Shown: positions 546-15,118 of the stretch, one piece after another | Numbering within the stretch: the first letter of the stretch is position 1 | Layout of the letters: each line of letters begins with the position of its first letter | IMG/VR virus record: IMGVR_UViG_3300009068_000198 | Span: 1-23,390 of that record | Length of the DNA: 23,390 bases | DNA from: a virus | Direction: 5' to 3' (one strand) | The notes under the pieces: generated by a model | Database searches by the model: none | Seen by the model: the letters and a program-made list of their open reading frames with translations, nothing else | Told to the model about the DNA's origin: nothing | Position numbers and translations under genes: made by a program

Positions 546-1463
546 TTATTTTATTTTTAAAAAAGATTCTTTAAGCATAGATTCTAATTTTTTATTAACA
601 GATTCTTTTTTAACGTCTTTTTTCTTTGGATTTATCAAATTAACATCTCCTTGTTTTAAAGCTACACCCCATTTATCTGATCCGCTTTTTTCTGGTTGAG
701 GCATAAAATCTCGTTTCGGAGCCCAACTTTCTGGTTTAGACTTTTTAATCATTATACTAACATTTTTTACAATATGCTTAGCAATTTGAGTATCATCATC
801 ATACCCATAATTATTCCATACGTCACGAGCTTTGTCTTCTAAATTATCTAATACATAGCCATAAGTATTTCGTGAAGTAAACGATAATAAATTACCTGCT
901 TTAAGATTTGCTGAAATAGTAACTGTTTCTCCAGCATCAGCTGCTATCGCGGTATGCACTGCCTTTAAAATATCTTTAGCATCTAGTTTTCCCGTAACAT
1001 TAATACATTTTAATTTTGCATCTGGGTTTGCAGCGTATACTTGAGACCATCTATGATGCCCGTCAATAATAAATTCTCCATTATAAGTAATGATAGAACC
1101 GCCTACATCTGCACTTCCCTTTAGAAACGATTCTAACGAACCATATTGATCAGTACAAATATTTTTTAAACTTTCTTCAGCTCCAATTTCATTTTGAGTT
1201 GGTTTAAGGTCTTTTGCCGCAATTAGTGTCGAAGCAACACTAAACTTTTCGTCATTAGGTTGTCCATCAGTTTGACCTGCTTTAAGCACTGCCATAATTT
1301 TAGGATCTTTTGAATATTGCTGTAATAGGGTAACATATGCAGGTACTGAGTCTGTTTTAAATGCCGTAGATAAATCATCTAATTTATCTTGAGTTTCATC
1401 CTCTTTTAAAATACCTGCCAATTTTTGTAATCTAACCGATTCTTTTATTAATTCTTGTTTCAT
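546..1463 (-). CDS. ParB/Srx-like DGHHR-domain protein
   Basis: A 305-aa protein. The N-terminus (KESVRLQKLAGILKEDE, residues 8-24) is a segment often seen at the start of T4-like marine phage proteins. Residues about 85-170 resemble a ParB-like fold: a PTQNEI segment (88-93), then the sequence GEFIIDGHHRWSQVYA, whose DGHHRW (134-139) is the signature of the ParB-like/sulfiredoxin-like superfamily that binds or hydrolyses nucleotides. The middle (about 170-250) is Ala/Asp/Lys-rich with no motif I know. The C-terminus is Lys-rich and repeats the KKESV and MLKES elements. Whether it is a nuclease, a CTPase or a structural protein cannot be read from the sequence. It begins 17 nt after the stop of the 319-aa gene, from which it is separated by four TTTTA units (plus-strand reading), and it lacks a Shine-Dalgarno. 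Confidence 0.75.
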   Translation of the reverse strand: MKQELIKESVRLQKLAGILKEDETQDKLDDLSTAFKTDSVPAYVTLLQQYSKDPKIMAVLKAGQTDGQPNDEKFSVASTLIAAKDLKPTQNEIGAEESLKNICTDQYGSLESFLKGSADVGGSIITYNGEFIIDGHHRWSQVYAANPDAKLKCINVTGKLDAKDILKAVHTAIAADAGETVTISANLKAGNLLSFTSRNTYGYVLDNLEDKARDVWNNYGYDDDTQIAKHIVKNVSIMIKKSKPESWAPKRDFMPQPEKSGSDKWGVALKQGDVNLINPKKKDVKKESVNKKLESMLKESFLKIK

Positions 1464-1482
1464 TTTATTTTATTTTATTTTA
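1463..1482. repeat. Pentanucleotide tandem repeat (TTTTA)x4
   Basis: Four perfect copies of TTTTA (TAAAA on the minus strand) occupy the whole spacer between the 319-aa gene and the ParB-like gene. The stop codon of the first and the first base of the ATG of the second lie inside the array. The A-rich minus-strand reading immediately before the ATG may act as the Bacteroidota-type, non-Shine-Dalgarno initiation region. Unit gain or loss would change only the spacing, not a reading frame. Confidence 0.8.
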
Positions 1483-2439
1483 CCAAAATCTACAACTCCA
1501 ATATCTAGCCTTCCATCTTGGGCCTGGATTAGTATCACATTTATGTCTAGCTCTAAACGACTTCCTTCTTGCTGGATTACTTTTTTTAATTTTCATTCCA
1601 GGTTCGCCAAATCCTACTTTTACAACATTTCCTTTGTCATTTCTAACATAAACAGCACGCTTTCTAGGGCCTCCAGGAGTATAAAACGGTTTGCCTAACT
1701 TAACCTTTCTACCTCTATATTCAGCTTCGATTAACGTCTCAATATCGTTTTTTTTTGACTCAATATAAAGTTCGGTTGGAGATGCTTTAGGCTGTTTCAT
1801 TTTTTTATCATAATCGCCCATGTTAACTCCTTTTTGTTGAGCTTTACTTCCAAATGCCATGTCTTCTAACTCTTTTTCAGACTGTCTAAAATCTTCAATT
1901 TCATTTTCAAACCAACCAGCAGCTAACGCTGCATTATTCATAGCTTGTGCTATGTCATCTTGATCAACTTCTGGAAATTTTTCAAATCCTAATTCATAAA
2001 ACTCATCCCAATCATCATCATTAGCTAACGCCTTTAATTTCTTTTTATTTGAATTAAAAAATGTTTCAACTTCATCTTTTAACGAAACCTCTTCACTTTC
2101 ACGTAAATTTACAGATTCTTTTACAATTTTGCGAACTGCCATTCTAACAATATGCTCTTGAATTTTATGATCTAATAAATCATAAATTTCTTCTGGTTCG
2201 TTAGATAAAATTTTATGAAATGCTTTATCCGCTGCATCCGCTTCAGATTCTGCTTGTTTTAATTTTTTTGCTTGAGCAATTAATGCAGGTTTTGCCTTTT
2301 CTCTTTTAACTGGATCTGTTGCATTAACAAACGCAGTTTTAAGAGCAAGCATTTTAGTTTCTTCTTCTTGCATTGCAAACATTTTAGCTTGCAATACTTC
2401 TGTTGCTTTTTTTAATTCTTTTGAAATATTTGGTGTCAT
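1480..2439 (-). CDS. Conserved phage protein with C-terminal RRKSFRARHxC / KARYWSC domain
   Basis: A 319-aa protein in two halves. Residues 1-110 are highly charged and Ala/Lys/Glu-rich, predicted helical or coiled-coil, and end in VRKIVKESVNLRESEE, which resembles the KESVRLQKL segment of the next gene. An acidic stretch (DDDWDEFYELGFEKF) follows at about 141-155. The C-terminal 80 residues are distinctive: YRGRKVKLGKPF (241-252), AVYVRNDKGNVVKVGFG (262-278), RRKSFRARHKC (291-301) and PGPRWKARYWSCRFW at the very end. I recognise this basic, aromatic C-terminal block as recurring in T4-like marine phages, always without a firm function as far as I know. The basic surface and two Cys (301, 316) could suit nucleic-acid or metal binding. 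The gene begins 4 nt after the stop of the GAF-like gene. Confidence 0.8.
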   Translation of the reverse strand: MTPNISKELKKATEVLQAKMFAMQEEETKMLALKTAFVNATDPVKREKAKPALIAQAKKLKQAESEADAADKAFHKILSNEPEEIYDLLDHKIQEHIVRMAVRKIVKESVNLRESEEVSLKDEVETFFNSNKKKLKALANDDDWDEFYELGFEKFPEVDQDDIAQAMNNAALAAGWFENEIEDFRQSEKELEDMAFGSKAQQKGVNMGDYDKKMKQPKASPTELYIESKKNDIETLIEAEYRGRKVKLGKPFYTPGGPRKRAVYVRNDKGNVVKVGFGEPGMKIKKSNPARRKSFRARHKCDTNPGPRWKARYWSCRFW

Positions 2440-3720: not shown

Positions 3721-6243
3721 TTATTTTTTAAATGATGAACTCATGCCTTTAATTATAAAAGATCCAGTAAGCTTAAATGGCTTTTTAGAAATTTTCGGAT
3801 CACGAATTACAATACCTTCATGCTCTGATACAGGCCCTAATGGAGAATTTAATTTTTCTAATACAGCATCTCCTAATTTCATAGTAGCCATATAAATTAC
3901 ATACCCGTCAACTGCAGATTTATAATCTTTAGGATCTTCAATATATTCAGGCAATGGAGTTCCTTCTGAAATTTTAATTAATACATCTTTTGACAATGCA
4001 GAAATTTTCTTACCGTCGACAGTTTTAATTTCATTATCTGGAATAGTTGCTTGAGCTAACCATTGAGAAAGAGTTTTAGTTTCTTTTTTGTCTCCGTAAT
4101 TAACTGTATATTTTTTATTTAACGCTACGGTTAAGTCTGGATTGCCATCTAATGTGGTTGGAATAGAACCTAAAACTTCATATCCATTTTTATTGGCTAT
4201 TGGAACTAAATTATTTAGTAAATCTTGCAAAGCTGGTTTGGAATATTTAATTTCTTTAGTAGCTCTTCTTTTAGGAGTTACTTGTTCAATTTCTAATAAT
4301 CCATGAACTGCTAAGAAATTTTTATTATAAGACAATACATTAGTTGATCCAGCTACATATTCCAAGTTAAACATGATATTTGGGTTATCCCAAAGACCTA
4401 ATTTTTTAAGAGCTGGAGTAATTGCTGATAAAGAGTTATTGAAAATATCTAATACAGTTCCACCTACTTTAATCATTCCATGTCCAGCGCCAAATCGATC
4501 TTCTAATTCTGCTTTGGTAATACCTTTTACGTCTAAAGGTTTATTAGAACCTCTATCCATTACAAACACTTTTTTACCATCTAATGTAATTAAACGAATT
4601 GAAGCATTTACTCCATCAATTTTAACTGACGCAGGTCCTTTCTTTAAATAATCAACAGATTGTGCAAACACTTTAACTAAATCTTTTCCTGATTTTACTC
4701 CGTCGATATTAAAGGGATGCTGCATATGACCTCCCGCTCCTCCACACATTAATAATTGATACCCCATATCTAAGGTATTTTTTGAATTAAGTATATCTTC
4801 AACTAATTTCGATAATGAAATTGATGACTTTATATTTTTTGATTCATTTATTGAATGATTTATTATTTCAAGATTTTTATAATGGCCTATAATATGTGGA
4901 TCGATATCATGCATGAATCCTTCGAATATTGAGTACTTATGATCTAAATGCATTGTTCTAGAACGCAAATGAGCGTTGAGAATTTCCTTGAAATAGTATT
5001 GGTAATTAGTTTCAGTAATTACTCGAACTGAATCTCTATATAAATTAAATTCAGTTTTTGAATTTTCTGACACCCAATATCCATTATCAATCATTTTTTT
5101 CTTAAATGATTTTTTATCGCCAAACCCATAACGGTTTCCAATTTCGGACTTATTAATTTTTAGCTTAGGATCTTTATTATAAGACTCAGTAACTTTTTTA
5201 CTTATTAATTTTCGTACATCATCACGTTTAGAAGGATTATCATCTCCGTATTTTGGATTATTATACGTTTCACTTCCATATCTTTCTAATTTAGTCTTTT
5301 TTATTTTTTGCACGTTAGTGGGATCTTTCATAGCGTTATTTTCAGACATTTTTTTACTAACACTATTAGGAATACATTTTGAATTTGGAAATTTAGATTT
5401 ATATTCTTTTAAGGTAATACCATGTTTACATATCATATGACTACCTGTAAGCTGCTGTTTTTGTTCGTTACATATTTCACAGGTAACAAATTCTTGAATA
5501 TTTTCTTGAGTTAATGGTTTTGTTAAATCTAACGATTCACTCCACCATTTTTTAGTAAAGATTGAAGTTTGATTTTCTGATACTTTACTTTTTAAATTCT
5601 TTTTTTTCATAATTTCTGCAATAAATGAAGATTTAGATTCATTTATGTTTTCTAATTTATCAAATATCATTTTAGCAGTTTTTTCATTATACCAACCAAA
5701 CGCTGCTTTGAATAATTTAATTTTTTGAGATCTTGGAACTGATGTATCTCCTAAGGCTTTTCGTAAACTAGTTCCTGACATTTCTCCATATCCTGGAACT
5801 TTTATTAAAACGTGAGGTGCTACTACTAAATACCCATGTTTATCAAACCCTTGTAAATTTGCTTTATGTTTACTGTATTCTTGAAAATATGAATCACTTC
5901 CATCTTTTTTAGTTCCTATTTTAAATCTAGGATTTTCTTTCATATCTTTTGCACCTACTAAAAATACTAACGCAGTATCTTCAGGTTTAAGTTGTGATGT
6001 AATCTCCTCCGCTTTATATGGATTCTTTACCTGTACAAGCCTATCACTAAACCCGTAATTACTTATTATATCGCGTTTCTCTTTGAAAGAAAAGGGCGAT
6101 TTAACCGGGTCTACGACATTCGAAGTTACTATATAACAATTTTGAGCTCCGAATTGAGATTCTAACCATTTGAATGCTTCTGCATGATGTTTTCCAAATG
6201 GCTGAAATCTGCCTGGATATAATGCTATTATGTTTTTAATCAT
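3721..6243 (-). CDS. NMNAT-like nucleotidyltransferase / HNH insert / KxDG ligase-like trifunctional protein
   Basis: An 840-aa uninterrupted frame with three parts. Residues 1-195 form a class-I adenylyl/cytidylyltransferase (Rossmann) domain: ALYPGRFQPFGKHH (7-20) with the HxGH-type motif, SPFSFKEKRDII (49-60), and GEMSGTSLRKAL (153-164) as the ISSTxxR motif. This type includes NMN adenylyltransferases. Residues about 220-490 look like a homing endonuclease: a MucR-like zinc finger (C255, C258, H269, H274), a NUMOD-like segment near 322-355, and an HNH core LDHKYSIFEGF (433-443) with NLEIINHS (457-464). Residues about 496-840 are a covalent nucleotidyltransferase (RNA/DNA ligase or capping) domain: VKIDGVNAS (540-548, predicted adenylated K541), FNLEYV (625-630, motif III), EGIVIRD (809-815, motif IV) and KLTGSFIIK (824-832, motif V). 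The ligase part with GGAGGHMQHPF recalls a family common in marine phages. It starts 12 nt after the 129-aa fibre gene. No intein splice residues are visible. Confidence 0.85.
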   Translation of the reverse strand: MIKNIIALYPGRFQPFGKHHAEAFKWLESQFGAQNCYIVTSNVVDPVKSPFSFKEKRDIISNYGFSDRLVQVKNPYKAEEITSQLKPEDTALVFLVGAKDMKENPRFKIGTKKDGSDSYFQEYSKHKANLQGFDKHGYLVVAPHVLIKVPGYGEMSGTSLRKALGDTSVPRSQKIKLFKAAFGWYNEKTAKMIFDKLENINESKSSFIAEIMKKKNLKSKVSENQTSIFTKKWWSESLDLTKPLTQENIQEFVTCEICNEQKQQLTGSHMICKHGITLKEYKSKFPNSKCIPNSVSKKMSENNAMKDPTNVQKIKKTKLERYGSETYNNPKYGDDNPSKRDDVRKLISKKVTESYNKDPKLKINKSEIGNRYGFGDKKSFKKKMIDNGYWVSENSKTEFNLYRDSVRVITETNYQYYFKEILNAHLRSRTMHLDHKYSIFEGFMHDIDPHIIGHYKNLEIINHSINESKNIKSSISLSKLVEDILNSKNTLDMGYQLLMCGGAGGHMQHPFNIDGVKSGKDLVKVFAQSVDYLKKGPASVKIDGVNASIRLITLDGKKVFVMDRGSNKPLDVKGITKAELEDRFGAGHGMIKVGGTVLDIFNNSLSAITPALKKLGLWDNPNIMFNLEYVAGSTNVLSYNKNFLAVHGLLEIEQVTPKRRATKEIKYSKPALQDLLNNLVPIANKNGYEVLGSIPTTLDGNPDLTVALNKKYTVNYGDKKETKTLSQWLAQATIPDNEIKTVDGKKISALSKDVLIKISEGTPLPEYIEDPKDYKSAVDGYVIYMATMKLGDAVLEKLNSPLGPVSEHEGIVIRDPKISKKPFKLTGSFIIKGMSSSFKK
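4770..5590 (-). mobile_element. Probable homing-endonuclease insertion inside the nucleotidyltransferase-ligase gene
   Basis: This in-frame segment encodes roughly residues 218-490 of the 840-aa protein. It separates two enzyme domains with a zinc-finger, NUMOD-like and HNH arrangement typical of phage homing endonucleases. Catalytic candidates are H432, D434, H435 and N457. The edges are approximate. Both flanks carry a similar INESK...KSS peptide (residues 200-206 and 465-474), sharing ATAAATGAATC in DNA, which could be a trace of how the insert arrived. No terminal HN/C-S-T intein signature was found, so the insert probably stays in the protein. Confidence 0.6.
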
Positions 6244-6691: not shown

Positions 6692-9580
6692 TTATGCGAT
6701 AGGGAATTGAGGAGGAGCCTGATTTACAGGAGCTCCTATTGCTGAAGAAGCTGATGCTGTTAAATTTCTACTAGACATAACTGCAAAATTTGCAAATTTT
6801 GCTTTGAATTCAAATTCAGTTCCAGCATCAACTGCGTTACGATACATTTTGAAAAATGCATAATCTAAATTAACATTATTAAGTATATCTTGCGATCCAG
6901 TTGGTATAGTAATTATTGCTTTAAACGGAGCTGATACTGATTTAGCTCCAATAGTTGTAATATTAAACGGAATAGTAGCAGATGCGCCTAAACCTAAGAT
7001 AGCGCCAGCATTTGGTGCGTATGTAATTGAGCCTGATACTCCCCCTACATAACCAACATCTGTAGCAGCTGGATCTTGATTACCAGATAGCCCAAAATAC
7101 GCGTAAGAGCTGGTAACAGGTCTCCATACCGTAAAACGCAATGCTAACACTAAATTAGCGGGAGTTGCGCCGCCATAATTTGATACTTTTTCTACAATTA
7201 TATTACCAAATACAGTTACTGTATTTTCAAATGGCAATGAATAATAAGACAAATCGGATATAATTGATTCGTAATTTAGCCATCGCTCAGATAAAGGCTG
7301 AGTAGCGGATCCTGAATTAATTGCACTTGCAACGTTAGTACTGTTATATGATTGAGTCCAATGTTGAAGATACACAGAGTCCATTGAAGTATATACTGAC
7401 GGAGTGTAATATATTGACGGATACATAATTTCCATAGGATCTGTTTGGTGATATAAAATACGACCAATATTTTTACCGTCAGTTAATCCTATTGCAGTAT
7501 TCATCATATATTGCGCATTTGCATCTGAAGATCCAGTTAATGCAATAAATGCTGATGCTGTTACATTACCCACAGTATCTAAATGAAAGTTGGTTCGAAC
7601 TCCATCATAATTTAAAATTTCTAATTTATTATTTGACGCACTTAAAAATGTATTATTATTACCAATAAAGAAATTAGATGCTGAGATTCGTAAATTGTTA
7701 TTTGATCCTGATATAAATGTACCACCGACATTTCCTAAAAAGAAGTTAGATGCTGAAATTTGTAAATTTCCATTTGAACCTGATATAAATGCACCAGCTG
7801 CATTTCCTAAAAAGAAATTAGATGATGAAATTTGCAAATTTCCATTTGAACCTGATATAAATGCAGCGCCGACATTTCCTAAAAAGAAGTTAGACGATGA
7901 AATTTGTAAGTTACTGCCCGAGCCCGATATAAATGCACCATTATTATTTCCTAAAAAGAAATTAGATGATGAAATTCGTAAATTTCCGTTTGAACCTGAT
8001 ATAAATTGACTTGCATTTCCTAAAAAGAAATTAGATGCTGAAATTTGTAAGTTACTGCCTGAGCCTGATATAAATGCGCCAGCTGCATTTCCTAAAAAGA
8101 ATGAATTAGTTCGAACATCTAATAATCCAGAACCTGAAGTAGTGTATTTGAAATAAGAAGATGAATTTGCTACTAATTCTAACCCCACCCCAGAATATGA
8201 TTCTGCAGAACCTAATATAGACTGAACAGACCCTGAATACATTACAAATCCTCCTGCTCCTCCTACACCGATTGCATTTTGAAATCCAGTATATCCAATA
8301 CTGCGTAACATTGATGAATTTCCCTTTCCAGAAATATGAACTCCAGTGCCTGTCGATCCGGCTACATATAAAGAACCTGTTAGTAAATTATCATCTCCTC
8401 CAATATATGTATTGCCTCCTAAAAATAAATTATCTAAAGATTCAATTACTTGTTTAGAAGCTAAACCTATAGGATTGATAAATTCAAATTTGAAATCTAA
8501 TCTATCATTTCGATGTACAGTCGGTAAAAAGAAAGAAGCTGTAACTACATCTGCATTAAATCCAAATTCAGTAGCTTGATCAGATATATCAGTTTCATTT
8601 GAAAGAATATATTCTCCAATTCCAGCACTTCTGTAATATGAACGAATTTTAGCAACTTCTCCTACTTGAGGTTGTAAATTACTAAAAAATACAGTAGCTA
8701 GATTATTTGAATTTTGAGTGATTTGTGCGCCAGAGGCTGACATTTCATATACTATATCAGCTGATGTAATATTAACAGTTTCAGGTTCGAATCTAGATAT
8801 ACTATCTTGAACTTCTAACGAAATTGGATCGTTTAACACAATTATACCAGCATCTGACACTGTAAAACTAGAACTATAATGTTCAATTATCGTGCCTGAA
8901 TATCCATTATTTAATATATTAGAATTAATACTAACAGTTCCAGATCTAGATCCAGCATCAAATCCAATAGTAGCATTTGAAGCTGTAACGACAACAGCTG
9001 TGTTATTATTATAATAATAAATTAAATTTCCTAACGTGTTTGATTTAAATCTAGATCCTCCTGGGTAACTTAAATTTGTATAAGAACCTGTAGAAGCGTC
9101 AACAATAATTTCAGGAAGTACGTCGAATATAATTTCAGAATCATTTCGTTTAGATATATCTATATAGACAGAGGTGGCCCATCGTAAATTAATTTGTGAA
9201 GTATCTAAAAAATATCCGTCAATGTCATTATTAATAGTACTACATAAAATAATATAAGCTGTACCTGACGGTGTTGATTCGTTAACATAAACTGTTACAA
9301 TAGCAGTTTGCTCGTCTGACTCTAAATCTAATGCAGTTTCGTAATATAATGCCTCGCCATTAGAATCTAAAATTTCAATGTATATACTACTTCCTTCTTG
9401 AAATATAAGTGGATTGCCTTTGAAATGAAATGTATTTTTACCAGCAGTAAATTCTGTCGGTAAATTTGAAACTCTAAAATAGTCAGGCGAGTTACTGCTA
9501 GTATCTTCTACAAGAACTGACAAATCAGCTAATCCTTGATACTCAATTTCATTAGTTATTAACTCATAGTTTACCGGCAT
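6692..9580 (-). CDS. Large tail fibre / baseplate-associated protein with 24-aa repeats
   Basis: A 962-aa structural protein. The N-terminal 160 residues are beta-rich, with FHFKGNPLIFQEGSSIYIEI at 51-70 and then LDSNGEALYYE, a pattern I associate with baseplate-attached fibre proteins of marine phages. Residues about 160-390 are Ser/Thr/Asn-rich beta domains. Residues 385-455 hold a Gly-rich segment (LFLGGNTYIGGDDNLLTGSL). Residues 492-656 are seven tandem repeats of 23-24 aa, of the form SNFFLGN...FISGSxxNLxIS, probably a trimeric beta-helical shaft. The C-terminal 300 residues (YPSIYYTPSVYTSMDSVYLQ onward) are not repetitive and may be the receptor-binding tip. The gene starts with a RATATTTAT element 21 nt upstream and no Shine-Dalgarno. 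It follows the homing endonuclease by 29 nt. Confidence 0.82.
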   Translation of the reverse strand: MPVNYELITNEIEYQGLADLSVLVEDTSSNSPDYFRVSNLPTEFTAGKNTFHFKGNPLIFQEGSSIYIEILDSNGEALYYETALDLESDEQTAIVTVYVNESTPSGTAYIILCSTINNDIDGYFLDTSQINLRWATSVYIDISKRNDSEIIFDVLPEIIVDASTGSYTNLSYPGGSRFKSNTLGNLIYYYNNNTAVVVTASNATIGFDAGSRSGTVSINSNILNNGYSGTIIEHYSSSFTVSDAGIIVLNDPISLEVQDSISRFEPETVNITSADIVYEMSASGAQITQNSNNLATVFFSNLQPQVGEVAKIRSYYRSAGIGEYILSNETDISDQATEFGFNADVVTASFFLPTVHRNDRLDFKFEFINPIGLASKQVIESLDNLFLGGNTYIGGDDNLLTGSLYVAGSTGTGVHISGKGNSSMLRSIGYTGFQNAIGVGGAGGFVMYSGSVQSILGSAESYSGVGLELVANSSSYFKYTTSGSGLLDVRTNSFFLGNAAGAFISGSGSNLQISASNFFLGNASQFISGSNGNLRISSSNFFLGNNNGAFISGSGSNLQISSSNFFLGNVGAAFISGSNGNLQISSSNFFLGNAAGAFISGSNGNLQISASNFFLGNVGGTFISGSNNNLRISASNFFIGNNNTFLSASNNKLEILNYDGVRTNFHLDTVGNVTASAFIALTGSSDANAQYMMNTAIGLTDGKNIGRILYHQTDPMEIMYPSIYYTPSVYTSMDSVYLQHWTQSYNSTNVASAINSGSATQPLSERWLNYESIISDLSYYSLPFENTVTVFGNIIVEKVSNYGGATPANLVLALRFTVWRPVTSSYAYFGLSGNQDPAATDVGYVGGVSGSITYAPNAGAILGLGASATIPFNITTIGAKSVSAPFKAIITIPTGSQDILNNVNLDYAFFKMYRNAVDAGTEFEFKAKFANFAVMSSRNLTASASSAIGAPVNQAPPQFPIA
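7613..8107 (-). repeat. Seven tandem 69-72 bp coding repeats in the fibre gene
   Basis: The repeat unit encodes SNFFLGN-x(3-4)-FISGS-x(3)-NLxISx. The plus-strand word TTTCCTAAAAAGAA recurs mostly every 72 bp, with one 69-bp unit (the copy containing NASQFISGS). Copies differ mainly at the Gly/Ala/Asn tips and at the Gln/Arg position. It is a coding repeat, not a CRISPR array: the units are contiguous, without spacers. Confidence 0.9.
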
Positions 9581-9601: not shown

Positions 9602-9610
9602 ATAAATATC
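9602..9610 (-). promoter_or_regulatory. Putative phage late promoter element (GATATTTAT)
   Basis: The minus strand reads TTTAGATATTTATTTAAAAT, 21 nt before the ATG of the 962-aa fibre gene. It overlaps the stop codon of the upstream endonuclease by one base, so fibre transcription could start independently of that gene. Confidence 0.55.
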
Positions 9611-10416
9611 TAAACGTAATATATCTTTGAATTTCCATTAGTCTTAGTAATTTCAATTAATTTATCTACTACATCTCGCATTGAATCGATATGTGATATA
9701 TTTAATCGAATAAATGTACAATGTAAATAATCTTCAATATGGTTCTGACGAATTAAATCTCTATCTTTAAGAGTTCCGTCTTTATTAAAATGATTTGGCT
9801 CGTCAAATTCAAATACAATATTATATTCTTTATTATATCCGTCGACCCAATAACCTAGCTCCGCAATATTATATTCCCCAATGTTCATTCCATGTTGTAT
9901 AAAAATTCCAGTTTCTGATGCTATTACATCAAATAACACACATGCATGTGTATTGAAATTTGGGCTAAATTTATTTGATAATCCTTTACTACTACGCTGC
10001 AATATTTGAGTATTACGAATTTTATCTATACTTTCTTTTTTATGTTTTTTACCTAACCAATTTTTACTAAAATTTGGATTATTGTTATTTAATTTTTGAC
10101 GATCGCTTACTCGCTTACGATATTCAGGATTTTGAACTGCCAATAATTGACGTTCTTTCATCTTTTTAAGATGTTCTGGATTTTTCATTGGATTATTATT
10201 TCCAGATTTAATCTTTGAATTTAACTGTTGTATTTTATATGTATGCCAGTCAGTACACAATTTACAGTCTTTATAAGTTTCTTTATAAATTTTTATCGTA
10301 ATACCGCTACATTTATTTAAGTGTTTTTGTGTAATTTGTCTAAGCTGTTTATTACACTCTAAACAAGTAATTAGTTCATTTCGATCAAACGGATTGGTTT
10401 CGATGTTTATGCTCAT
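9610..10416 (-). CDS. Free-standing homing endonuclease (zinc finger, NUMOD3-like, Vsr-like nuclease)
   Basis: A 268-aa protein. Residues 14-40 form a MucR/ROS-like zinc finger (C18, C21, H32, C36, then GIT) that aligns with the finger in the endonuclease insert of the 840-aa protein. Residues 70-136 carry NUMOD3-like DNA-binding segments: GNNNPMKNPEHLKKM, and NNPNFSKNWLGKKHKKESI. The C-terminal domain (about 155-245) looks like a Vsr/DUF559-type PD-(D/E)XK-related nuclease: AELGYWVDGY (185-194), VFEFDEPNHF (201-210), KDRDLIRQNHI (217-227) and CTFIRL (233-238). Candidate catalytic residues are E203, D205, H209 and D220, an arrangement reminiscent of EDxHD homing endonucleases. It sits alone between the DNA-repair and fibre genes and overlaps a 50-aa ORF by 32 nt. 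Its recognition site is unknown. Confidence 0.8.
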   Translation of the reverse strand: MSINIETNPFDRNELITCLECNKQLRQITQKHLNKCSGITIKIYKETYKDCKLCTDWHTYKIQQLNSKIKSGNNNPMKNPEHLKKMKERQLLAVQNPEYRKRVSDRQKLNNNNPNFSKNWLGKKHKKESIDKIRNTQILQRSSKGLSNKFSPNFNTHACVLFDVIASETGIFIQHGMNIGEYNIAELGYWVDGYNKEYNIVFEFDEPNHFNKDGTLKDRDLIRQNHIEDYLHCTFIRLNISHIDSMRDVVDKLIEITKTNGNSKIYYV

Positions 10417-10569: not shown

Positions 10570-13500
10570 CTATTGAAAATTTACATATGAAAAATCTCCT
10601 TGTTTTACTATTTCAATTTGCTTGTCTGCCATATCTTTAGACGAGTCAATATGACTAATTAAAATAATAAATGAAAACATCGATCGTAAATAATCTAATA
10701 AACTATAAAATTCAGAAATTACTGTAGCATCTAAATTTCCTAGGCCTTCATCAATAGCTAGGAAATTAGGTCTAGGCAATGACGAAACGTTTATTAACGA
10801 AGTTCTAATAGCTAAAGACGATATGAATTTCTCCATACCAGATGTCAACTCAATTGGCCAGAAATTATCCTGATCATATACAATATAACAATTGATATTT
10901 TTGCCATCCATTTCAAGCATTAATTGAAAATCAACTAACTGACTTAGTATATTATTAATTTCTTGCTCAATAAATGGCACTGCTGTTGTAATTAAATCAT
11001 ATGGAACCCCATCTCGATTAACTGCTTGTAAATAATATTCATAAAACTTATACTGTTTTGTCAAGTCTTTTAATTTAATAATAGACTCTTCAGCTTTTTC
11101 TTTTAATTTTTCAGACACTAACATATTTGAGTGACATGCTAATATTTGATCGTTTAAAATACTTAAATCATCTTTTAACTTTGATACACCTTCATTCAAA
11201 TTATAAATAGCATCTTTAATTATTTTGTTTTCTTTAATAGCAGCTTCCTTTTTAAAATACTCACTTATCTGATAATTAACTTCACTTAACTTAGCTGACA
11301 ATTGATGCTGTTTAGAATCAATTTGATGTAAATTAGATTCTATAGAAGATTTTTCTGATTCTTTTAAATGTATATCTTTTTGTAGTTTATTATAATTTTC
11401 TTTTTCTTTAAGTGAAGGCGTTAATTCAACAATCTTATCTTTAACTACATTTAATTTATCTACAATTTCTTGAGCAGATTTTTTATCTTCTTCAATTGAA
11501 GCTTTAGTAGTAATAGCATCTTTAACAAATACATTGTTCATACAAAATGAACAATTTTCATCATACTCTAAATCATTAAGTTTTTCCATTTTTTCTAACT
11601 TATGACTTACTTCTGCTTTTAATTTTGCTACTTGACCAACTAAAGTTTTTTCAGATTCTTTAACTGAATCTAAAACATCTATTCTCGCTTCAATTTCTGT
11701 AATATTATACTTTGATAATTCATCTTTTAAAGTAGATATAATACCATCAACTTCAATTAATTCTTGCTGCTTGTCAGTAACTTCTCCATTTAAAGATGTT
11801 ATTAATTTTTCAACTTTAGATTTTAATTCATTTAGTGAATCTATATTTTCAATTGAAGCGTCAATTGGAACTAAATCTGAAGTCAATGATAAAATCTTAT
11901 CATTTAATTCATTAATTTTCAATTCTAACTCTGCTTTATCAATTTGATAATTTTTATGTTCTTTTGAATATGTATCAATGTCTGTAATTGCGTGAGCTAA
12001 TTGAGTTCCAAAGTCTTGTCTCTGATACTCTTTAACTAGCGTAGCTACTTCTTTAATATCGTCGTTTGCAATTCTATATAAGTCCTCAAATATATTAATA
12101 TCTAGGAACTGAGCTAGTAAATCTTTACGATCTTTTTGAGCCATATCAATAAACCCAGAATTGTTATTTTGTACTGACAATGCAGTTAAAACAAAATCTT
12201 CATAAGTTCCTAGCAATTGTCTAATATGATCATTTGTCTCACTTCGCTCTTTTCCATTTAACGATTCTTTATTTCCTAAATCATCTACAGAATAAAAATC
12301 TACATCAACTCTTACATGGTTACCTCTTCCTTTAGTTCCTTTCTTTTCAATAAAATAATTCTTTCCGTCTAATTCAAAGTTAAATGTACATTTGAATGAA
12401 TCAGATTTATTATTCATTACAGATGCAGCTTTAGAAGTTCTACCACATTTATCAAATATACAATATGTAATAGCATCTAACATTGTAGACTTTCCCGAAG
12501 CGTTTGGAGCAAATATTCCATACACGCCTTTCATATTTGTAAAGTCAATTACATTGTCTATTCCGTAACTAAACATATTTGAAAACTCAAATCGTTTTGG
12601 AATCCAAGATACATTTCGATTTACTTCTAAATTAGGTAGTCCTGAATTAACTGTTCTATTTACGTGACGAACTCCATCTAACATTTCATCGTCTAATGCA
12701 AATTTATTTTCTAAATATTTTGAAATTAATTCATTTTGGTATTCAACATCACGAACATCGCCAATATTAATTTTTTGTACTCTAGATTTATTAACAGTAA
12801 AGTCATTTATCTTTTGTATCGTAAATTCTTCTATATTAAATTTAGTCTTAATGTCAGCAATAATTGCTTTTAAATCTGCTGGCTCTGTATTTTGTACTTT
12901 AATTCGAAGACGAATTGTTTTATTTTCTAAAGACTTTGAAATTGGAGAATACTGACTATTATCAATTTCCAAAGTATAATAACAAATATCATTTTCAATT
13001 TCTACAAATTCTGCTTGACAAGTTTTTGTATCCCATACTAACATACCATGCACTAAAGCCTCTGCATAATTTTGTTGAATTAATGAACCTGGATATGCGA
13101 TTGTTTTTGCTGCATCTAAATATTGATTAGGTTTATGTATATCTCCTAACAATGTAAGTTTATATCCAGCAAATGTATCAATATCAACATTGTCATTTAC
13201 TAATCTAAAACCAATATCAGTCATTGCATTATTTACAGCTCCATGATGAAGTGCAATTTTAAAATCTCCTTCAAATGAATCAGCTTTTATAAAATCTTTA
13301 GGTTTATCGAAAACAGACATAACTACAAAGTGTTTGTCGGCTAAATGATATACCCCAGACTCTTTGAGATAATGTAGATTTGTATGATTTAGTGCGTTGA
13401 CAATTGGAGTTAATGCATCTAATCTAGATTTGTTATTTAAGTTGCAATCATGGTTACCTGTAATTAAAATTGTAGGTGCTATATCAGCAAACATTTTAAA

Positions 13501-13728
13501 GAATTCTTGAACTGATTGCACTAACTCAGGTGTCATGTCAGTTTTAGCGTGAACAATATCACCTCCTAAAAAGATAATATCATTAGGTTCAATTGTACTT
13601 TTAATTGCATCTATCGTTCTTTGAAATACCGTTTGATACTCTTTATGTCGCTTTAAATTTCTAATATGAATATCAGCAATGTGATATATTTTATTAATAG
13701 TGTTTATTCCAATATTAATTTGTTGCAT
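10570..13728 (-). CDS. Fused Mre11-Rad50 (gp47-gp46 / SbcD-SbcC) recombination nuclease-ATPase
   Basis: A single 1052-aa frame containing both subunits of the MR complex, which processes DNA ends for recombination-dependent replication and host-DNA breakdown in T4-like phages. The Mre11 part (1-375) shows DIH (19-21), GGDIVH (55-60), GNHD (91-94), HH (161-162) and GDIH (195-198). The last motif is normally GHxH, so D196 replaces a metal-binding His. The Rad50 part (about 378-1052) has Walker A APNASGKST (407-415), Q-loop Q520, a coiled coil (about 560-900) broken by a CSFC zinc hook (C726, C729), an ABC signature LTSGMEKF (961-968), Walker B FLAIDEG (989-995), D-loop GNLD and H-loop H1026. 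T4 encodes gp47 and gp46 as separate proteins in this same order. The ATG overlaps the primase stop as TAATG, implying coupled translation. Confidence 0.96.
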   Translation of the reverse strand: MQQINIGINTINKIYHIADIHIRNLKRHKEYQTVFQRTIDAIKSTIEPNDIIFLGGDIVHAKTDMTPELVQSVQEFFKMFADIAPTILITGNHDCNLNNKSRLDALTPIVNALNHTNLHYLKESGVYHLADKHFVVMSVFDKPKDFIKADSFEGDFKIALHHGAVNNAMTDIGFRLVNDNVDIDTFAGYKLTLLGDIHKPNQYLDAAKTIAYPGSLIQQNYAEALVHGMLVWDTKTCQAEFVEIENDICYYTLEIDNSQYSPISKSLENKTIRLRIKVQNTEPADLKAIIADIKTKFNIEEFTIQKINDFTVNKSRVQKINIGDVRDVEYQNELISKYLENKFALDDEMLDGVRHVNRTVNSGLPNLEVNRNVSWIPKRFEFSNMFSYGIDNVIDFTNMKGVYGIFAPNASGKSTMLDAITYCIFDKCGRTSKAASVMNNKSDSFKCTFNFELDGKNYFIEKKGTKGRGNHVRVDVDFYSVDDLGNKESLNGKERSETNDHIRQLLGTYEDFVLTALSVQNNNSGFIDMAQKDRKDLLAQFLDINIFEDLYRIANDDIKEVATLVKEYQRQDFGTQLAHAITDIDTYSKEHKNYQIDKAELELKINELNDKILSLTSDLVPIDASIENIDSLNELKSKVEKLITSLNGEVTDKQQELIEVDGIISTLKDELSKYNITEIEARIDVLDSVKESEKTLVGQVAKLKAEVSHKLEKMEKLNDLEYDENCSFCMNNVFVKDAITTKASIEEDKKSAQEIVDKLNVVKDKIVELTPSLKEKENYNKLQKDIHLKESEKSSIESNLHQIDSKQHQLSAKLSEVNYQISEYFKKEAAIKENKIIKDAIYNLNEGVSKLKDDLSILNDQILACHSNMLVSEKLKEKAEESIIKLKDLTKQYKFYEYYLQAVNRDGVPYDLITTAVPFIEQEINNILSQLVDFQLMLEMDGKNINCYIVYDQDNFWPIELTSGMEKFISSLAIRTSLINVSSLPRPNFLAIDEGLGNLDATVISEFYSLLDYLRSMFSFIILISHIDSSKDMADKQIEIVKQGDFSYVNFQ

Positions 13729-14713: not shown

Positions 14714-15118
14714 TTAATTTAACCAATCTTCAGGAATTACCTTATCTGCGTACTGAAACCCATGTTTATCACACCAGTCTGCATATGATGTTTTAGACCC
14801 TTTAGAAATTTTAGTTTTTGAATTTTGAAATAAAAATCTAATGTCTAATTCAGGATATTGCTTTTTAATTAATATATGTTTTTTTCTATCATCTACCAAA
14901 AATCTTCCTTTAGTTTCTATAAAAATTCCATTAGGAAGTTTAAAGTCTGGATGATATTTGTGTTTGGTTTCTGGTTTAATGAATTCAATGATATGTTGCT
15001 CATACTCGCCATCAATTCCTTGATTTTTAAGAGAAGCATCTATATCCATTTCTAAACCACTACGGAAACCGTACTTAGCTGCGACGGCTTTTTTGCTATA
15101 TGGATTTTTTCTTGCCAT
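14714..15118 (-). CDS. T7 endonuclease I-like Holliday junction resolvase
   Basis: A 134-aa protein that reads as a close relative of T7 gp3 (endonuclease I), which resolves four-way junctions and branched DNA. The alignment is clear along its length: FRSGLE (18-23), YHPDFKLPNGIFIETKGRF (55-73), DDRKKHILIKKQYPELDIRF (76-95), SKTKISKGSKTSYADWCDKH (100-119) and ADKVIPEDW (124-132). All catalytic residues map: E23 (T7 E20), D58 (D55), E68 (E65) and K70 (K67). The basic C-terminal tail of the T7 protein is absent. T4-like phages normally use the unrelated endonuclease VII (gp49), so this enzyme in a T4-like DNA module is a notable substitution. It lies 14 nt after the 597-aa tail gene and before the primase. 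No Shine-Dalgarno is seen. Confidence 0.95.
   Translation of the reverse strand: MARKNPYSKKAVAAKYGFRSGLEMDIDASLKNQGIDGEYEQHIIEFIKPETKHKYHPDFKLPNGIFIETKGRFLVDDRKKHILIKKQYPELDIRFLFQNSKTKISKGSKTSYADWCDKHGFQYADKVIPEDWLN

Follow-up and report, generated by a model that had tools for sequence, protein, structure and literature searches.

The question raised by this locus is what a phage protein is for that holds a nucleotidyltransferase-like domain, an HNH-type endonuclease and a KxDG ligase in one reading frame. The frame encodes 840 amino acids at 3721-6243 on the minus strand and runs uninterrupted from ATG to stop; it lies in a 23,390-base IMG/VR virus record, the whole of which is referred to here as the window. 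A sequence-only reading had divided the frame into these three parts, and all of the motifs it quoted were found in the single open frame. Because the motif residues are invariant among homologues, their occurrence is judged to be far beyond chance.

The N-terminal domain (residues 1-197; 5653..6243, minus strand) carries GRFQPFGKHH at residues 11-20 and MSGTSLR at residues 155-161, and when scanned alone it matched PF01467 with 22.8 bits (cut-off 21). Its AF2 model (pLDDT about 85) gave the Rossmann-type nucleotidyltransferase (NTase) that had been expected, with NadM 2r5w as the top Foldseek match (E 1.6e-4, prob 1.0) and 2qjt likewise (E about 2e-4); the modelled fold thus supports the earlier assignment of an NMNAT-like nucleotidyltransferase. 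GRFQP and the following HH (H19-H20) were invariant across 14 relatives. The domain shares with NadM and the NMN adenylyltransferases the NTase fold and the GRFQP and SGTxxR motifs, but it differs from them in having GxHH in the place of HxGH and in lacking a Nudix domain, and it falls far below the equivalog cut-offs, scoring about 17 bits against the NCBIfam NMNAT equivalog and subfamily models whose cut-offs are at least 127. Since GxHH replaces the canonical (H/T)xGH signature, which is absent from this NTase family, NAD synthesis by the domain is not assured by its sequence.

The C-terminal domain (residues 499-840; 3724..4749, minus strand) contains the motifs KIDG (541-544), NLEYV (626-630), EGIVIR (809-814) and KLTGSFIIK (824-832). 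Residues K541, D543, G544, E628, H506, H509 and H647 were identical in all 137 homologues of this domain, and E809, G810, K824, T826 and G827 in all 136 that cover these positions. No matching family was found in Pfam, PHROGs or NCBIfam, and direct sequence searches of the PDB gave no meaningful match. The AlphaFold model was good (pLDDT 87); its best structural matches in the PDB were RNA and DNA ligases, at E 0.009 or weaker and with low TM-scores, and in a viral structure library they were uncharacterised fusions followed by viral DNA/RNA ligases. Profile comparison revealed clear homology to a family from the phage Mel-JY01 (Prob 97.6, E 3.6e-12). The profiles of the single families showed no significant match to the T4 Rnl1 family, but the merged profile of the two did (hhalign E 6.2e-4; score 36.8, where the highest of 60 column shuffles reached 25.1), and motif I (Rnl1 K99) and motif III were aligned in register. 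The KxDG ligase assignment is upheld by this Rnl1-like core and by the invariant motifs, which indicate that the domain is probably a divergent, active Rnl1-like covalent nucleotidyltransferase. Motifs IV and V are also present. Compared with T4 RNA ligase 1 (Rnl1, gp63), however, identity is very low, the Rnl1 C-terminal domain is not recognised, and the domain is fused to other modules and has an extra invariant GGAGGHMxH segment. DUF6267 (PF19782) was rejected as its parent, since the hhalign score of 25.8 was not significant against a shuffled maximum of 26.2. When a cellular origin was sought in genome contigs, the one match was a MAG fragment. One homologue (L016:5959-7830) is broken by an in-frame stop within the KxDG domain into frames of 401 and 222 amino acids.

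Relatives of the protein numbered 31 in the first scan, and 335 stretches matched a profile built from its C-terminal domain. The NTase is followed by KxDG in one frame in 47 of the 61 distinct proteins tabulated, many of the rest being fragments. The same fusion in dozens of assemblies rules out that separate genes were misassembled, and the sequence-only reading was right to treat the two domains as parts of one gene. The arrangement is not constant: in L031 the order is reversed with the KxDG domain N-terminal, in L118 and the cyanophage S-SM1 the NTase and its partner are adjacent separate genes, and ligase genes without a fused NTase occur in L063, L064 and L118. Such recurrence supports a functional link between the two domains and not a fixed two-domain enzyme. 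A comparable pairing is seen in the T4-GC190 and DUF6267-cytidyltransferase proteins of S-SM1 and S-PM2, where a CTP_transf_like NTase likewise adjoins or is fused to a K-x-D-G protein in T4-like phages. These differ from the window protein in having the canonical TxGH, the homology of DUF6267 to the window KxDG domain is not significant, and the order in S-PM2 is reversed, with the DUF6267 domain (carrying KWDG) preceding the NTase in one protein. The DUF6267-type proteins of S-SM1 (L137:22295-24419) and S-PM2 (L135:33486-35261) show KWDG and EGFV patterns and are possibly a second ligase-like family.

That the two domains stay together, in either order or as neighbours, and that they combine NadM-like and Rnl1-like folds with invariant ligase motif residues, would also be expected of one bifunctional enzyme. 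This had been proposed from the sequence: the NTase would make a dinucleotide such as NAD for the KxDG domain, or both would act in turn on RNA ends. On such a model the linker would serve as a flexible spacer and any xE sites in it would be incidental. The region between the domains speaks against this. In the window the variable linker comprises residues 198-249 (5497..5652, minus strand) and has predicted prohead-protease-type sites after E202, E210 and E223, with a further one after E251 at the edge of the insert. Among relatives both its length and its content vary widely, and it holds unrelated modules: a LETM1-like one, short shared CWxGYKQ, GYMS and SLKPNxW elements and, in L026 (L026:6001-8274), a Thoeris inhibitor Tad3 domain (E 2.6e-30) together with DUF5661. 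Tad3-like sequences were seen in 58 phage records, nearly all of those listed being hypothetical or unannotated. In the marine relatives L333, L340, L335 and L328, polyproteins of 1250-1410 amino acids have a zeta-toxin/AAA_33 kinase upstream of the NTase, followed by the KxDG ligase, a possible RNA repair (kinase-ligase) or NadR-like set; the L340 polyprotein has the leader MNKLTKWLVESILTE/A (slashes mark cut sites or junctions). Judged from these sequences, the linker accommodates interchangeable modules.

The module boundaries share a signature as well. Of 57 distinct proteins, 51 have [LIVM]xE/GG at the junction before the KxDG domain; those that depart from it are the insert carriers, a copy with an insert scar and L031, whose KxDG domain is N-terminal. 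Many modules of other types, the patterns of which were defined by eye, also start just after [LIVM]xE. As the IMG/VR sequences are related and the counts are not independent events, enrichment was assessed in 17 dissimilar linkers to reduce the effect of kinship: [LI]xE occurred 62 times against 32.3 expected, and none of 2000 shuffles equalled this count. Over the fuller set, [LI]xE was depleted in the NTase (9 vs 28 expected) and neutral in the KxDG domain (80 vs 83.5), and controls with E swapped for D, K, Q, N, S or T gave z values from -2.3 to 2.6. Some [LIVM]xE also lie outside the linker, within the insert and at a few positions of the folded domains. The predicted sites at module boundaries resemble the cut site of the T4 prohead protease gp21, which cleaves after L/I-x-E (PMC9026906). 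Enrichment specific to linkers, the high variability of the linker with its unrelated modules, and the ligase genes that lack a fused NTase all weigh against the bifunctional enzyme, which we regard as unlikely. The proposed coupling of dinucleotide synthesis to ligation in a single enzyme is therefore disfavoured; because the linker is hypervariable, [LIVM]xE stands at module boundaries and stand-alone and reversed versions exist, it is more likely that the parts are separated on packaging.

The genomic setting is that of a T4-like phage. The window encodes gp47-/gp46-like parts, a primase, tail-fibre-like proteins and a T7-type endonuclease I. The gp47- and gp46-like subunits are apparently fused in a 1052-aa ORF (10570-13728, minus strand), and L118 and L029 carry ORFs close to it in size. 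The endonuclease (14714-15118, minus strand; PF05367, E 8e-59) is of T7 type in a T4-like phage, and the 962-aa fibre-like ORF at 6692-9580 (minus strand) has many near-identical repeats (SGSNGNLQISSSNFFLGN). The contig, which has neither protease nor capsid gene of its own, is too short to show them. In longer related records the homologue adjoins T4-like head genes, and the Gp23 capsid and S77/gp21 prohead protease were detected in 8 of 14 of these. The gene order there is tail fibre, homologue of the 840-aa frame, a 202-aa gene, two small putative membrane proteins, large terminase, portal, protease, scaffold and capsid, the names terminase, portal and scaffold being assigned by the location and length of the genes. 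Mel-JY01, a cultured Microcystis phage, likewise has its homologue directly upstream of the terminase.

T4 internal proteins are targeted via a 10-residue N-terminal sequence (PMC9026906), which in ipII/ipIII reads MKTYQEFIAE/A. Capsid proteins of phages related to the window have QLVTE/A or QLITE/S near the N-terminus, likely the equivalent of the gp23 cut. The stand-alone KxDG gene of L118 begins MNLIKILLSE/GG, a 10-residue leader like the T4 capsid-targeting sequence, and the starts MIKLKSLLKE/A, MIKLKHLLKE/D and MIKLTELMNE/Y occur on neighbouring genes of L116 and L118. Slightly longer leaders, ending in ITE/D, LTE/D, TE/G or SE/A, precede the NTase in L092-L124, and leader-like peptides lie inside the fusions of L094 (MKLKSLINE/GG) and L106 (MKLKDLIVE/GG). 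It is plausible that leaders became inter-module sites after in-frame fusion of capsid-targeted proteins. Taken over all N-termini in these contigs, leader-type sites at positions 8-13 are only modestly enriched (41 vs about 25 expected), and the window protein has no N-terminal leader but begins directly with the NTase. Two of its neighbours are candidates for co-packaging. The ParB-like protein at 546..1463 (minus strand) has the leader MKQELIKESVRLQKLAGILKE/D, and the protein at 1480..2439 (minus strand) has a C-terminal half that in L116 is a separate gene with the leader MIKLKSLLKE/A. The ParB-like protein opens with the motif R(L/F)xKLAG(L/I), which is also C-terminal on proteins near protease and capsid genes in L131-L134 and is a possible head-core targeting signal in the lineage with these records.

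Related cytidyltransferases have been reported in virions. T4-GC190 was reported in virions of the cyanophage S-SM1 (PMC3037559); it begins MKKFSAFLNE/A, and this pattern is kept in 80 of 80 IMG/VR homologues. A cytidyltransferase was also reported in S-CREM2 virions, for which the authors suggested injection and did not exclude contamination (PMC10665884). These detections concern relatives whose NTase is more distant from that of the window.

Taken on its architecture, conservation, module exchange, site pattern and leaders and on synteny in relatives, all read from sequence, the 840-aa protein is in our view probably a multi-enzyme polyprotein that would be packaged in the head, processed by a protease and injected. 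A modular polyprotein encoded in the head-gene neighbourhood would be packed into the prohead, where a gp21-type protease would cut it at the [LIVM]xE sites between modules, and the released enzymes would enter with the DNA at the start of infection, as do the T4 internal proteins and Alt. The two constant modules, the NMNAT-like NTase and the Rnl1-like KxDG ligase, would be joined by a linker that takes further, exchanged modules. With T4 IPI-III and Alt the family shares a T4-like head neighbourhood (in relatives) and [LIVM]xE sites, and the stand-alone member in L118 and the related virion-reported cytidyltransferase have 10-residue leaders of the same geometry. Unlike these proteins, it would have several enzymes per polyprotein with sites between the modules, and the window copy lacks a leader, its packaging being presumed. 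The polyvalent proteins of phages and plasmids (Iyer et al. 2017, PMC5512222) likewise join disparate enzymatic domains in one polypeptide and are thought to be injected; they contain a fused metallopeptidase, whereas a prohead protease acting in trans at [LIVM]xE is proposed here, and their domains differ. These injected multi-domain proteins and the injected T4 anti-restriction proteins (PMC12373910) are precedents for the polyprotein.

The third part of the frame is a zinc-finger/HNH insert of about 249 residues (250-498; 4750..5496, minus strand). A C-x2-C...H-x4-H zinc-finger-like stretch starts at residue 255 and an HNH-like stretch (HLDHKYSI...NLEI..HSINESK) at residue 432. The motifs noted earlier are thus present, and the HNH residues are conserved across four copies of the insert, whereas none of the Pfam HNH models matches it; its AlphaFold model is of low confidence (pLDDT about 30-50). 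That this part is an insert, as had been claimed, was borne out by homologues 88-97% identical that do not have it: the closest relatives, L003-L005, read NIQESLLKE/GGAGGHM where the window carries the insert, which ends LLMC/GGAGGHM. Similar blocks occupy the identical site in L001, L002 and L121, the last of which also has the target sequence again, in diverged form, ahead of its insert; part of the block persists in L122, and in L081 nothing but a tail-like scar, DTLDMEHQLLVC. An intein was rejected, as the junctions have no Cys/Ser start or HN/C/S/T end, as was a group I intron, for which there was no Rfam match, and a search of phage records with the insert gave no match. A 268-aa endonuclease-like ORF at 9610-10416 (minus strand) shares the zinc-finger module with the insert (35% over 79 residues) and differs in its C-terminus, which by eye is PD-(D/E)xK/Vsr-like.

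As the simplest reading we infer an in-frame homing endonuclease, a nuclease predicted from its motifs, which would have entered at the conserved start of the ligase and changed LKE/GG to LMC/GG. This change costs the window copy its junction Glu, so that nuclease and ligase might remain connected there. The same loss (LLMC/GG, LLLC/GG), together with the in-frame position of the block in several divergent copies, could mean that it is not a selfish element and instead serves the polyprotein as a third functional module, which remains joined to the ligase and is delivered with it, for example to cut competitor DNA. We consider this quite improbable, given that the block is missing in near-identical relatives, partly deleted in L122 and reduced to a scar in L081, and is invariably found at one conserved site, as homing predicts. 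Least of all do we favour a structural or assembly factor with partly or wholly co-opted enzyme folds, like T4 Rnl1 (gp63) promoting tail-fibre attachment: the gene does lie between tail-fibre and head genes, the HxGH motif of the NTase is altered and T4 RnlA is annotated as a tail-fibre attachment catalyst, but all six nucleotidyltransferase motif residues are invariant, which argues for catalysis, and the exchange of modules such as Tad3 better suits counter-defence.

The function of the injected polyprotein is a matter of speculation. RNA ligases serve phages in mending cut tRNA, and phages also rebuild NAD that NADase defences have depleted (PMC9503650); the enzymes could, early in infection, restore what host immunity has damaged, be it nucleotides (the NAD pool) or RNA ends (cut tRNA). 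Of these we put RNA repair first, at a little short of an even chance, and NAD restoration, which we hold to be rather doubtful, second; both themes would accommodate the kinase and Thoeris-inhibitor modules. In a broader form we tentatively suggest, as something that may well not hold, that T4-like phages of a widespread class deliver a counter-defence cassette punctuated by prohead protease sites, in which constant NMNAT- and Rnl1-like enzymes and interchangeable extras (a Thoeris inhibitor, a zeta/polynucleotide-kinase-like kinase) arose by in-frame fusion of capsid-targeted proteins and would be cut in the head and co-injected to undo NAD and RNA damage inflicted by host immunity.

No earlier paper on DUF6267, Mel-JY01 or Tad3 was found in the open-licence literature, to which the search was confined, so novelty is unproven. 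Cytidyltransferases have been reported in cyanophage virions with no account of how they enter or what they do there. The leaders, together with the [LIVM]xE junctions, suggest that they are targeted to the capsid in the T4 manner, and the uncatalogued Rnl1-like ligase that recurs as their partner is suggestive of a role. Uncultured T4-like phages are many and most of their modules have no known function; if the proposal is true, modules bounded by protease sites would offer a way to search these phages for injected counter-defence proteins.
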